64,000 bases of DNA, taken from Methanothrix harundinacea 6Ac. Its GTDB lineage: Archaea; Halobacteriota; Methanosarcinia; Methanotrichales; Methanotrichaceae. The notes under the pieces were generated by a model, which saw only the letters and a list, made by a program, of their open reading frames with translations, was not told where the DNA came from and searched no databases. A program made the translations under genes and the position numbers. Each line of letters starts with the position of its first letter. Position 1 is the stretch's first letter. The stretch is taken from assembly GCF_000235565.1 (NCBI RefSeq), contig NC_017527.1, positions 2,170,001-2,234,000 on the forward strand, given 5' to 3'. Positions 47,588 to 52,973 of this stretch are shown here, piece after piece.

Positions 47588-48757
47588 TCAGCCCTCGACG
47601 AAGCTCCGTACCAGGCTGGGGATCGTCCGCGGCCGCGCCCTGGCCAGGGCGATCCCCGCCGAGAGCCCCTTCCTGAAGAACGAGCCTGAGAGGTCGAGGT
47701 CTCGCTTCGCCAGGCCCGCAGCCAGCCGGTCTATCTCCTCCTCGGGCATTCTGCCGAGGGTCAAGAGGGACGCCCGGCCCATCCGGTACTCCAGGCCGAA
47801 CTCGCGGCGCCAACGCCGGACGTAGGGCGAGAGCCCCCGGATCGATACGTCCCCGGCCGCGGCGGCGCCGGCGGCCACCTCCCCGGCCATCGTTCCCGCC
47901 CGGATGGCGTAGGCGATCCCGCTCATGCCGGCGGCGGCGCCCGTCGCCATCAGGGAGTCGGCGACGATCTCGCCGGGCAGGGTCGCAATGGCGTCCCCGC
48001 CCCGGTTCACCGAGACGATCTTCATATCCGAGACGTCGTAGTCGGCGGACTTGTAACCTTTGAAAAACTCCACGAACCGGTCGAGGAACGGCCGGACGTC
48101 CCGGCCGTGACCCCGGACGAAGACTCCCAGGGTCGCCAAATCGCCGCCGCCGGGGGAGAAGGTCGCCTTCCACCCCGGCGAGATCGAGCCGAGGAAGTAC
48201 TCGAAGCGCCTCTCCTCCCCCAGGCCCGCTAATTCGACGACGGCCTCCGCGGCCCAGGCGACGTCTTCGGGATGCTTCAGCGGACTGAGCCCCTCTTTTC
48301 TCGCGATCGCACCATCGACCCCCGAGGCGTCGATGACGACCCGGGCACCGATCTCCCCGGCGTCGGTCTCGACCCGCCGCCCCGAATCCGCCAGGGGGGC
48401 GGACCGGGCCACGCCCCGGAGAAGCTCGACCCCCGCCCCCTCGGCCCTGTCAAGGTAGAGGGCATCGAACCTCCCCCGGTCGATGAACCTCCCCGCCGCC
48501 GGGATCTCGACGGCGTGGCCTGCGGGGGAGATGATCCGCATCCCTTCGAGGTCGTGGAGGACGTACTCCCGCTCGACCGCGAGGCCCGCCCGGCGGAACA
48601 TCCCGTCGAAGAAGGTGTTCGCCGGGTGGCCGAAGCTGCCGCCCATGTCTTTGTCGAGGAGGATCACCTCGGCGCCCGCCTTCGCAGAAGATGTGGCGGC
48701 CGCGATCCCCGAGGGGGAGGCACCCACCACCAGAACGTCGCAGTTCACGCTTTTCAA
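47588..48757 (-). CDS. Geranylgeranyl-reductase-like FAD-dependent oxidoreductase
   Basis: A 389-residue flavoprotein. The dinucleotide fold begins with VLVVGASPSGIAAATSSAKA (G-A-S-P-S-G in place of the more usual G-x-G-x2-G) and a LLDKD end of beta 2. The later LMATGAAAGMSGIAYAIRAG corresponds to the second flavin-binding block. This is the family of digeranylgeranylglycerophospholipid reductases that saturate archaeal lipid side chains, and of related quinone and menaquinone-type reductases; which one cannot be said. A 48-base copy of its 5' coding sequence lies 0.8 kb upstream at 49483-49530. Confidence 0.78.
   Translation of the reverse strand: MKSVNCDVLVVGASPSGIAAATSSAKAGAEVILLDKDMGGSFGHPANTFFDGMFRRAGLAVEREYVLHDLEGMRIISPAGHAVEIPAAGRFIDRGRFDALYLDRAEGAGVELLRGVARSAPLADSGRRVETDAGEIGARVVIDASGVDGAIARKEGLSPLKHPEDVAWAAEAVVELAGLGEERRFEYFLGSISPGWKATFSPGGGDLATLGVFVRGHGRDVRPFLDRFVEFFKGYKSADYDVSDMKIVSVNRGGDAIATLPGEIVADSLMATGAAAGMSGIAYAIRAGTMAGEVAAGAAAAGDVSIRGLSPYVRRWRREFGLEYRMGRASLLTLGRMPEEEIDRLAAGLAKRDLDLSGSFFRKGLSAGIALARARPRTIPSLVRSFVEG
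48702..48749. repeat. Direct repeat copy A (5' end of the flavoprotein gene)
   Basis: This 48-base stretch, coding for the start of the dinucleotide-binding fold, recurs with two mismatches at 49483-49530. Together the two copies flank the HicBA module. It is functional coding sequence of the oxidoreductase gene here. Confidence 0.75.
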
Positions 48758-48933
48758 GTGGGAGAAGGTGGGTGATGAAGGTTTCCGTTTTGGACAAAGA
48801 TGGTCAAAGCGCCAGGAGCCTGGCGGCTCCGGGAATGTCGCGCAGGTTCAGGCGGAGGCGAAGAGATCTAGCTCTCGAAAACAAGATGAATCAACGCCCT
48901 CAGCAGGAACGAGCCCGACCCGAGAAGGGACGC

Positions 48934-49164
48934 TCACAGATACCTGGCAAACTCGTCCTCGTCGACCTTTGCAAGCTTCAGCACGCCCTTCAACGTACCC
49001 ATTTTCAGCTCCCGATGCATGGGCACCACAGTCCCGACCTTTCCGTCGGGCGTCATCTTCGATAGCCGAACGTGACTTCCGGTGCGTCCGCTGATCTCAA
49101 AATCGAACTTTTTACAGAGTATCTTGACCGCCGCCTCGCCGGAGACCGTCCTAAGCTTTGACAA
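48934..49164 (-). CDS. hicA: HicA family toxin
   Basis: Small double-stranded-RNA-binding-fold protein of the HicA mRNA interferase family, about 76 residues. Visible marks: SKLRTVSGEAAVKILCKKF at the N-terminus, the core GRTGSHVRLSK with the catalytic-type His, and VVPMHRELKMGTLKGVLKLA near the C-terminus. The start is read as TTG at 49164, six bases after GAGGTGG and overlapping the hicB stop; a TTG at 49179 is the alternative. It is the downstream gene of the hicB-hicA pair, reversed from the commonest hicA-hicB order. Confidence 0.85.
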   Translation of the reverse strand: MSKLRTVSGEAAVKILCKKFDFEISGRTGSHVRLSKMTPDGKVGTVVPMHRELKMGTLKGVLKLAKVDEDEFARYL

Positions 49165-49363
49165 CGGGAACCACCTCAAAGGTGGTTATGAAAGGTCGTT
49201 TTTTCTCTTCCAGAGGAAACTCTTCCAGGTAAAGCTCAGTCGCCTCTTTCAGGTTGTCCACGGCCTCCTCTGGCGTCTTCCCCTGGCTGACCGTCCCCAC
49301 CTCGGGGCATTGGGCCACGTACATCTCCTCTTCCCTATAGACCACAGCCGTAAACGTCCCCAC
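49151..49363 (-). CDS. hicB: HicB family antitoxin
   Basis: Antitoxin of 70 residues with the partial RNase H-like HicB fold: FTAVVYREEEMYVAQCPEVG, SQGKTPEEAVDNLKEATELY and a tail with no DNA-binding HTH. It would neutralise HicA by protein contact; lacking an HTH or ribbon domain it may need another protein to bind DNA. It is upstream of hicA with overlapping ends. Confidence 0.85.
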   Translation of the reverse strand: MGTFTAVVYREEEMYVAQCPEVGTVSQGKTPEEAVDNLKEATELYLEEFPLEEKKRPFITTFEVVPVVKA

Positions 49364-49482
49364 GTCAGATCACCTTGTCGAATATATGCGACCCATCAGT
49401 TAAACCATTCTCCTTTCGAGGAACCTCAACATAGCCGCCTTCTCCCCTTCCCTGGGAATTTCCGCCCAACCGTGGACCGGGT

Positions 49483-49530
49483 GCGATCCCCGAGGTGGAG
49501 GCCCCCACCACCAGAACGTCGCAGTTCACG
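49483..49530. repeat. Direct repeat copy B (remnant of flavoprotein gene start)
   Basis: Same orientation as 48702-48749 and 46 of 48 bases identical. It has no gene attached: the coding sense breaks off at both ends, although the next bases (to about 49580) retain weak resemblance to the flavoprotein upstream region. It looks like a relic of a duplicated gene start or one side of an insertion carrying hicBA. Confidence 0.7.
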
Positions 49531-49589
49531 GATGTTTGGTGGGCGTCAGCCGATGATTAGAGTTTCTGTTTCCGGCCAGAGAAAGGATG

Positions 49590-51484
49590 TCACTTTCTGC
49601 CAGGTCCCGGCTCCTGGGAGGCGAAGTACTCCATCAGCATTCTGTGGACGAAGACGTAGCCTCCGCCGACTTTGCGGAGGAATATCCGCTCAGTGGCGTA
49701 GTCGAGGAAAGTGACAAGCCTCCAGGGGAGGAGGCCTTTGCGGTATAGGATGAACCGAAGGGCGAAATGCTGGATTACTGCGAGGCCGCCAAAAATTAGG
49801 CCACCAATCACTCCAAAAATTAGTCCATTACCGTTCCACAAAATTATCTCACCAGTAATCCCAAAAATTAATCCAATAATCAGCCCAGTGAATATTGAAT
49901 TTTTTGCTGACAACATAATGCCTTGATTGGGGATAGCTCTCGTTTTCATATCTGCAAAGCCCAAACCTCCATGGTTCAGACCGATCCACAGCCAAATGAT
50001 CACACAACTAATTAGTCCCTGTCTTGATCCACCATCCATCCAGCCAATCAGCCCAAAAAAAATCCTCCAATAAGAAAATAGATTAACATCTTTCGTCCCA
50101 TTTTCCAGGACCAGTTTAACCTTTCGACCGGTATTATCTCACTCAGCTTAGACATCATCCCAACAGCCAACCCAAAAATCAGCCCGCCGATCAATCCACC
50201 CCACAGTCCGCCAATCGACCCAATAATCAAAACAACTAATATAAAATATAAATTTTTTAAGTATTGTGTCTCCAACAAGGTCGGCTGCATCCGCTCGATC
50301 AAGAACACAGTCTGGCCGTGCTCCGACATCTTTTGGCCCAGCCATGAGAGCCAGTGGATGGTTTTCTCTTTTGTATACCGCTTGGGGTCCGTCCTTCCCG
50401 TCCGCTCGAACATCCTGTCAACGTAGGTTTTGAAGAGATGCCTCCGGTGATCTCCGGTGGAACAAAGTGATTGAAGCTCCTCAACCGAGATCCCCTTGTA
50501 GGCGAGGGCCATTATGCTCAATATCAGGGGTGTTTTTGCGAACTCCTGAAGTTCCTGATCGTCCTTCAGCGCATCTCGCAACGGTGCCATTTCCGGGCTT
50601 AATCTTTCGAGATAGCCATCGATCTGCTCGGGCGTCAGAGGCTGCAGGAGGACCGCACTCTGTAAGTTGAGCCTGCCATCCAGTGCATCGTACTCCTCTT
50701 TGCGACAGCAGACGACCAGCGGAACAAAATGCTCTTCGAGAAAGACGTTGATCGCCTCGATGCAGGCCTCCCTTCTTTCCGGTGCGACCTCGTCGAAGCC
50801 GTCGAGGAGAAGCAGGAGAGAGTCGTTCTCGACCCAGCGGGCGGCGATCTTCTTCGGGATGTTGTACTTCGCCCTCAGCTCCTCTGTCAGCCAGTCGGCG
50901 ATCGGCTGCTTCGGGTCGGTCCATGAAGATAGGTTGAAGACGACCGGTATCTTTTCCGAGGGGTCCTCCCCGGCCCGGTCGATCATCTCCCTCGCCAGCT
51001 CCAGCAGGGTGGTCGTCTTCCCGGCCCCCGGCTCTCCCAGGATGAGAAGGGACCGGCCGACCCTCTCGAAGACGTCTGAGATCTTCGTTCCCGGCGGAAG
51101 CTCGCAGTCCGGCCGGCCCGGAGTCCGCAGGATCACGTCCCAGGGGCGCTCGGCGACGGCGTCTCTTCGCTCCTCCAGGCCAAGCTCGATCCGCGCCTCC
51201 TCGTGGAGGGAGTTCTCCAGCACGCCCTTCACCCAGAAGTCTCGAACGCGAGTGAGCATCGCCTGTCGGTTGAATGCGTCGCGGGCAGACCGCTCGTCTT
51301 CAGATGTGTATTTCGATAACAGTTTTCTAAGAAGGGCATCGGTGGCGTCGAAGGTGGAGATGATGATGGATAGCCCGGTCAGAAAACCTATCAAAGGTCC
51401 AAAAAGCATAGTCGCGGATTGGTACTCGTAGTATCCCCAGATGATCGAAGCAAGACACATCAATAAGCCTATGATGCGCGACAT
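49590..51484 (-). pseudogene. NACHT-domain NTPase with membrane segments, frameshifted at a T run
   Basis: STAND-type ATPase split in two frames. The first (478 residues from ATG 51484) has an N-terminal pair of membrane helices (IIGLLMCLASIIWGYYEY, GPLIGFLTGLSIIIS), NACHT Walker A GEPGAGKTT (150-158), Walker B LLLLLDGFDEV (223-233) and a glycine-rich membrane segment, and stops at 50048. The second frame (stop 49590) continues the same protein with more Gly-zipper membrane repeats and the family C-terminus VTFLDYATERIFLRKVGGGY. One extra T in the T8 run at about 50055-50062 restores a 631-residue frame (639 residues if the GTG at 51508 is the start). Relatives act in signalling and phage defence; a defence role is an inference. 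The segment is markedly AT-rich. Confidence 0.7.
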
Positions 51485-51696
51485 CGCCCGCGGGATTCCT
51501 GAGAGCACGCTGACATACGATGTTTTGAAGCCACAAAAGTTTTTCCTTCAGCCTCGATTTTTTACCCAGACAGATGAAAGATGTAAGAGTCTCATCTGCC
51601 TCGAAATCGGAGTACAGACTCCGCCAGCATGCAACCCTTTCTGGCCCTCCCGCCTCCAGCGCCGACGGTGCGCCTTCACCGAGACGCCGCACCAAG

Positions 51697-52747
51697 CTAC
51701 CTCTCCGGCTCCGCCCCGGATAGCTCCGCCTCCAGCTCCTCGATCGTGGGAAGGTTTCTTTTCATCTCGCCGGCCAGGGCCTTTTCGAGCCTGTAGCTTG
51801 AGATGCCCACGGGCTTGTTAAGATCCCGCAGAGCGTACTCGGCTATCACCCTGTTCTTCGTCTTGCAGAGGAGGATCCCGATCGTCGGCCCGTCGTGGTC
51901 GGCTTCCCGGATCAGGTCGTCGACCGCCGACAGGTAGAAGTTCAGCTTGCCGACCTGCTCCGGGGCGAAGTCGCCGATCTTCAGCTCGACGACCACGTAG
52001 CAGCGGAGCCGGAGGTGGTAGAAGAGGAGATCGATCCGGAAGTCCTGACCGCCCACCTCCAGGGGATGCTCACTCCCGACGAAGGCGAACCCGACCCCAA
52101 GCTCGATGAGAAAGTCGCGGAGGTGCGCCAGCAACGATCGGTGAAGGTCGCGCTCCGATGCCCTCTCTCCCAGGCTCAGGAAGTCGAAGCTGTAGGGGTC
52201 CTTCAGGATCTCCCGGGCCAGATCGGACTGGGGCGAGGGGAGAGTCCGGTGGAGGTTTGTGACCGCCTTTCCCTGACGGCGGAAGAGGTCGCTCTCGATC
52301 TGGTGGACGAGAACGTTCCGGCTCCACCCGTTATTCACCGTCTCGCGAACGTACCACTCCCGTTCGGCCCGATCTTTCAGCTTGTCCAGGATCACACAGT
52401 TATGAAACCACGGAATTTGTGCAGCAACCTGCTGCACAAATCCGTCATCTTCCCACGCCTCCGCAAAGGCCCGCATGTACTTGAGGTTCCGGGGAGAGAA
52501 GCCCTTCATCTCCGGAAACTCCCGGCGGAGATCGACGGAGAGCCGATCTATCACCTTTGCGCCCCAGCCCTCTTCTCCCTGCCTCCTGAGGATTGACCTT
52601 CCTCCTCTGCCAGTAGAGGAGGACAAGCTCTCGATTTACGCAGAGGGCTGCACCGACCTGAGCAGAGCGGATTCGGCCCTTCAGATCGGCAAGCAGTTCC
52701 GGATATCCAGGGGGCAGACCTGAAGGAGTTGTATTCGGCCGGGACAT
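51697..52747 (-). pseudogene. YhcG/DUF1016 family PD-(D/E)XK nuclease, frameshifted near the N-terminus
   Basis: The locus resembles the YhcG family, DUF1016 N-domain plus C-terminal PD-(D/E)XK nuclease domain, about 350 residues. The N-terminal part (52747 down to about 52605, MSRPNTTPSGLPPGYPELLA then AQVGAALCVNRELVLLYWQ) leaves the frame in an AGGAGGAAGG repeat; the rest continues in another frame (ILRRQGEEGWGAKVIDRLSV onward) to the stop at 51697. Removing one A at about 52604-52605 rejoins them with the spacing of intact relatives. The nuclease block FRIDLLFYHLRLRCYVVVEL is intact. Such proteins accompany restriction and defence genes. Sequencing error remains possible. Confidence 0.72.
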
Positions 52748-52973
52748 ACGCTTCTTACCTCAGATCAATCAGCTCATTTCGTCGAAGAGTTTGTTGGCGG
52801 GTTTCTCAAACCCCAGCTCATACCAGAGGTTATATACATCTAAAAAGTTTTTCCTCCAATCTATTTTTAGCCCCTGCGAGCAGATCTCCTCTATTCGGTG
52901 GAGAGGGCGAAAGAGCTTCATCGAGAACACGAACCACAAGCCCTTTATCGCCCTGGGCCGAAGATCTCCTCTG

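Follow-up and report, generated by a model that had tools for sequence, protein, structure and literature searches.

Gene content and the frame break

The window analysed here, a stretch of 64,000 nucleotides of the Methanothrix harundinacea 6Ac genome, contains between a reductase gene and an FtsJ gene a NACHT-type STAND ATPase gene that is read in two successive frames, in the company of a HicA gene and a DUF1016 gene (Table 1). The original prediction had been that of a NACHT ATPase gene whose frames change at a run of eight T residues, and both parts of this claim were confirmed: the two frames meet at the run given in Table 1, and the first frame matches the NACHT profile PF05729 (E = 2.6e-11; 44.1 bits against a Pfam cut-off of 26.7). 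The presence of the Walker A (GxPGxGKT) and Walker B (hhhhDGhDE) patterns places the protein in the NACHT clade of the STAND ATPases.

Table 1. Features of the NACHT gene and of the site that surrounds it, in window coordinates.
Feature	Position	Strand	Remarks
NACHT (STAND) ATPase gene	49590-51484	-	1,895 bp, two frames in succession, change at T8
First frame	50048..51484	-	N-terminal hydrophobic segments, NACHT ATPase, helical part, first membrane segments
NACHT domain match	50600..51052	-	Residues 153-303 of the 486-aa frame; GEPGAGKT and LLLLDGFDE
T8 run, frame-change point	50055..50062	-	A8 on plus strand
Second frame	49590..50063	-	Remainder of membrane block and conserved C-terminus
Gly-zipper membrane block	49710..50281	-	Spans the break; weak 12-nt periodicity
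Conserved terminal motif FLDYATERIFLRKVGGGYVFVHRMLMEYFA	49620..49709	-	Same motif found in relatives
HicA (PF07927) and small HicB-like ORF	48934..49363	-	HicB by position/resemblance, no Pfam match; missing here in G002
94-bp fragment duplicating reductase 5' region	49478..49571	.	Other copy 48697-48790, 78%
DUF1016/YhcG nuclease gene, two frames	51697..52747	-	PADLOC candidate PDC-S02

The first frame comprises 486 codons if the GTG at 51508 is taken as the start and 478 if the ATG at 51484 is, and it stops at 50048. The second frame gave no match to a Pfam domain (best E = 0.27) and aligns with the C-terminus of the uninterrupted relatives. Over its last 67 codons the protein shares 78% and 85% identity with two orthologues, with dN/dS values of 0.36 and 0.17, and on the basis of this identity and of these ratios we consider the second frame to be real coding sequence. 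Values of dN/dS on either side of the break fall in the same range (0.17-0.36), indicating purifying selection, and the gene carries a single lesion, located at its longest homopolymer. An old pseudogene, in which several lesions or relaxed selection would be expected, was therefore rejected.

An ATG of the second frame lies at 50039, shortly past the stop of the first, and with only a few bases between this stop and this ATG and with the second frame intact, translation could restart there to yield two separate polypeptides whose halves assemble in the membrane. We regard such an arrangement as very improbable, as the break falls inside the membrane block, the six intact relatives are fused and a conserved split form was not seen. 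Our best explanation is instead that the gene encodes one membrane-embedded ATPase of approximately 640 residues; taken as a whole, together with the miscall of the run and the membrane-switch mechanism considered below, we give this explanation an even chance of being right.

Relatives and the membrane block

Searching with the first frame (E ≤ 0.001) in nine genomes of the genus and 237 genomes of the class, the genome under study being included in both sets, yielded matches in three and 42 genomes, respectively, those in the class being mostly to other NACHT proteins with 24-34% identity. The close family consists of the copies in G000, G002 and G008 within the genus and in G034, G037, G040, G046 and G047, which belong to one family of the class and show 52-76% identity to G000. 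Six close relatives form one open frame of 635-693 codons from stop to stop; the G034 homologue is broken in several places, and a 50% identical piece on a Chloroflexota metagenome contig (L003) is likewise interrupted. At E ≤ 1e-20 there were also 24 plasmid records, from Nostoc (14), Acaryochloris (3), Tolypothrix (2), Crinalium (2), Sphaerospermopsis, Calothrix and Streptomyces (1 each). We examined eight of these records, which provided seven proteins, leaving out the match in Acaryochloris 'Moss Beach' that is annotated as several genes. The six cyanobacterial proteins present the full order of NACHT domain, membrane block and terminal motif, and the Streptomyces protein presents a divergent form.

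As read from the sequence, the intact protein would be ordered as N-terminal hydrophobic segments, NACHT domain, helical part, membrane block and a terminal FxHRxxLEYF motif. The helical part ends in the conserved HWLSWLAxxM...QTVFLIExMQP, and the conserved terminal stretch reads FLDYATERIFLRKVGGGYVFVHRxLLEYFA. We take a terminal FxH...EY motif following the helical part to be a hallmark of the NACHT clade and presumably the winged-helix end of the NACHT module; a motif of this type is present in the second frame and in all 12 family members. Between Walker B and the terminal FxHxxxxEYF-like motif the 12 family proteins have 334-494 amino acids with three to eight hydrophobic segments, compared with 189-229 amino acids and none or one hydrophobic segment in six other NACHT proteins, these being five of 22 other archaeal NACHT loci, the five that fitted the patterns (the remaining 17 did not and provided no spacing value), and a second NACHT protein of Nostoc. 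This difference in distance suggests that the membrane block has been inserted into the NACHT module, at a point after Walker B and ahead of the terminal motif.

The membrane segments and the Gly-zipper had also been predicted, and both are supported: GxxxG pairs are in excess over shuffled sequences in the first piece after the NACHT part (8 against a shuffle mean of 1.9, a value of 8 being reached by 0 of 5000 shuffles) and in the second piece (8 against 3.5; 42 of 5000). Beside these two window pieces, such pairs are above the composition expectation in 13 of 13 proteins. In the DNA encoding the block, identity at a lag of 12 nucleotides amounts to 0.38 in the window, 0.58 in L006, 0.46 in L002 and 0.40 in L008, compared with 0.27 in the NACHT part. 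Tandem Repeats Finder identified in L006 (2755-3039) 12-nt tandem repeats of up to 10 copies with 73-83% matches that encode the Gly-zipper, and it reported none in the window. The length of the block varies widely among relatives, and expansion and contraction of such repeats is the likely cause of this variation.

Pfam recognised no domain outside NACHT in the window pieces or in L002, neither an effector nor a sensor, and the archaeal members end at the terminal motif, with no C-terminal sensor beyond the NACHT module. Since neither end has a recognised domain, we favour the membrane block as the candidate effector, sensor or both. Phmmer gave no match between the NACHT protein and solved structures, and a profile search of the same structures returned for the most part short P-loop matches and chance hits on the membrane helices of a receptor. 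For L002, an alignment of four rows gave an AlphaFold model of too low quality to be used (mean pLDDT 40.9).

The bNACHT proteins, as presented in the accessible part of the source (PMC12169576), have an N-terminal effector and a C-terminal sensor. The archaeal protein resembles members such as bNACHT25 of clade 6 and SNaCT of clade 14, going by the same portion of that source, in being a single-gene STAND-class NACHT ATPase; it differs from them in having no Pfam-recognised N-terminal nuclease, SNaCT or NCH1 domain and in having a membrane block inserted in the module instead of a separate C-terminal sensor. In the mostly open-access literature that we searched, no description of this inserted-block architecture was found, and in relation to that literature the protein is an undescribed NACHT variant with a membrane insertion.

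Similar in organisation are the cyanobacterial plasmid proteins (for example, WP_261891894.1 of Acaryochloris marina and WP_179077053.1 of Nostoc sp. C057), which have the same domain order and an equivalent terminus, FLDYA...KVGGGYIFxHRxLLEHFA. Their N-terminus is a soluble leader or a CHAT domain and they often have a small partner gene, whereas the archaeal protein begins with hydrophobic segments and no constant partner gene was seen. Small genes of approximately 125-150 codons lie ahead of the cyanobacterial relatives in L089-L092; those in L090 and L092 have a QIGG-like leader in common with the NACHT protein, and that in L091 is Trypco2. We take EAD and Trypco domains to be linked to STAND conflict systems. 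The conflict systems with CHAT and caspase domains, to the extent covered by the text available from PMC7159879 and PMC8195603, share the STAND switch with our protein; partners of this sort are seen beside the cyanobacterial relatives and next to none of the archaeal copies examined.

Origin of the interruption at the T8 run

It had been proposed that slippage at the homopolymer switches the gene on and off. Our results speak against this: the T8 run is absent from all six intact homologues, so that there is no conserved phase switch, and the RNA after the run folds no better than shuffled sequences (z = -1.03; 29 of 200 shuffles fold as well), leaving no recoding structure downstream. Phase variation and programmed frameshifting were rejected on these grounds, and nothing that we found supports a selected switch at the run. 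Some full-length protein could still be made through polymerase slippage, a ribosomal shift by -1 or variation in the length of the tract: eight T residues permit slippage in principle, a -1 shift would lead from the first frame into the second, and slippage on A8 and A9 runs is reported for other genes in the part of PMC1088944 at hand. Given the lack of conservation and of RNA structure, and because selection against runs acts mostly at nine residues according to that same part of the source (PMC1088944), we hold use of the run by the cell to be improbable.

A sequencing error had been named as the other possible cause, and the history of the genome favours it. The part of the genome paper that was available (on Methanosaeta harundinacea 6Ac; PMC3349665) reports Roche 454 sequencing at 26-fold coverage with reads of 236 bases and Sanger gap closure, and in a test of the 454 method, as far as the accessible text of PMC1564139 goes, more than 97% of the errors fell at homopolymers. 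That genome paper also states, in the same portion, that low-quality regions were resequenced (PMC3349665), which counts against a miscall.

The 6Ac assembly has 2,571,034 bases in two contigs (2,559,043 and 11,991 bp). We examined all of its A/T runs of at least eight bases (50 distinct runs; 53 overlapping matches), and in our judgement a gene is interrupted at the NACHT run alone. Among the other T8 candidates, L041, L052 and L075 had been flagged from open frames and by eye interrupt no gene, and at L050 and L058 an intact frame spans the run. A codon-usage test was also conducted on 384 kb of the assembly, enriched for runs, in which runs of at least seven bases were scored: 47 of the 50 scorable coding runs stay in frame and three switch. 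This result, along with the NACHT run being the sole gene-interrupting one among the 50, indicates that the assembly is mostly right, which counts against a miscall. One of the three switching runs, L136 (A7), is by eye a gene boundary without a Pfam match. Under a looser setting seven runs were flagged, including the nine-base run of L119 and the run of L143; the others (L044, L118, L122, L160 and a second run in L119) are by eye gene borders or lie beside the same break. As the test grades the NACHT break itself as 'weak', it misses breaks in AT-rich sequence.

Two conserved genes of the same assembly do change frame at homopolymers. A PRK04140 regulator gene is broken at a nine-base C/G run (L119, approximately 1501-1509; C2:198665-198673), the frames that flank the run matching the NCBIfam PRK04140 model at 1-113 and 111-314, and in all eight other genomes of the genus it has a frame of 315 codons or more. 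A beta-lactamase-fold hydrolase gene is broken at an A7 run (L143, approximately 2142-2148; C2:136472-136478), with its frames matching PF13483 at 1-85 and 68-160 on either side, and the other eight genomes have frames of 212-221 codons. Both breaks, found at runs and only in the 6Ac assembly, are best read as miscalls. Since these conserved genes break at homopolymers and are intact elsewhere, a miscall of the length of the T8 run in the 454-based assembly is in our opinion the most likely cause of the apparent break, with a probability somewhat better than even.

The neighbouring DUF1016 gene argues in the other direction: it is also frame-broken, and in comparison with the G001 copy (L096) the break consists of one extra base outside any long homopolymer, which looks like real damage at the locus. 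The NACHT break could also be a recent inactivation by replication slippage, through which 6Ac would have lost the protein in the course of gain and decay at a hotspot of defence and toxin-antitoxin genes. The presence of the NACHT gene in only three of the nine genomes of the genus, the cargo of the site differing among genomes where this is readable, and the at least two frame changes in the G034 homologue are in agreement with such a loss. The single lesion, the purifying selection that has acted on either side since the orthologues diverged and the homopolymer breaks in conserved genes of this assembly are not, and we consider a true loss a serious possibility of well below even probability. 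The weights given to the miscall and to the loss are our judgement and were not computed.

The variable site and a proposed immune-type switch

What lies between the reductase and FtsJ genes (window 48757-52791; L096-L098) differs from genome to genome. In the window, HicA and the HicB-like ORF lie between the reductase and the 94-bp duplicate of its 5' region. In G008 a flavodoxin/FMN-reductase-like ORF, identified by eye, lies between two copies of the reductase 5' region (L081 3500-3613 and 4457-4561), and in G002, with a single such copy and no cargo at that point, the reductase and NACHT genes lie immediately side by side. The site contains DUF1016 and ORFs resembling by eye a nucleotidyltransferase/HEPN pair in G001; HicA, a HicB-like ORF, approximately 1.7 kb of sequence that is not related to the NACHT gene, and a DUF1016 of reduced length in G003; and a transposase-like ORF in G005. 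Such contents are consistent with a hotspot at which mobile genes for defence and toxin-antitoxin systems gather.

Transfer of the gene had been proposed from the AT-richness of the region. Mobility itself is supported by the patchy presence, by the variable site and by the bacterial relatives; the AT-richness is weak evidence for it, because low G+C is found mainly in the membrane-coding part (0.418, compared with 0.578 in the first 1200 nt and 0.533 in the whole gene) and L002 shows the same. In a tree of the NACHT core, small and including a short piece, the four class sequences group with the Chloroflexota piece (support 96/92), which suggests that the archaeal copies are not monophyletic.

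Placing these results into a model, we propose with even confidence that the protein is an immune-type membrane switch. At rest the ATPase would be in a closed state at the cytosolic side of the membrane; an infecting virus or damage to the membrane might then act as the trigger for nucleotide exchange and assembly. Because the membrane block sits inside the switch module, assembly would rearrange the helices: the glycine-packed helices would be pulled into a new arrangement, and the membrane may then become leaky or a signal may be passed on, with a stop of growth or cell death as the outcome. The orientation, the assembly, the membrane effect and the role in defence are all inferred, and to act against phages or in stress would be plausible for the protein by family and by neighbours. 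That Pfam recognises neither an effector nor a sensor domain counts against the model, as does the poor quality of the structure prediction.

The same protein might act as a regulator of membrane stress or of housekeeping instead of in defence. When searched with PADLOC and NCBIfam it gave local P-loop-type matches only and no defence model over its full length, and no relative was found in phage records and none confirmed in viral contigs, which speaks for a regulator of this kind. Its patchy distribution, its position in a hotspot with HicA and DUF1016 and the neighbours of, or fusions to, the cyanobacterial relatives (caspase, CHAT and Trypco2 genes) point away from such a role, and we consider it rather unlikely.

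Tentatively, we suggest that there could be a class of one-protein, inflammasome-like membrane switches shared between archaea and bacteria, in which the ATPase directly rearranges an intramodule Gly-zipper pore or sensor that diversifies through variation of the 12-nt repeats. For the 6Ac reference genome the consequence is that homopolymer frame breaks need checking before they are given a biological reading, the NACHT break being probably an artefact. In descriptions of the NACHT proteins tested so far, effectors and sensors occupy the ends, and here the membrane part sits within the switch; the intact family would make it possible to test in a single protein how ATP use is coupled to damage of the membrane, and the immune-type switch would be one that relatives of the methanogen and multicellular cyanobacteria have in common.
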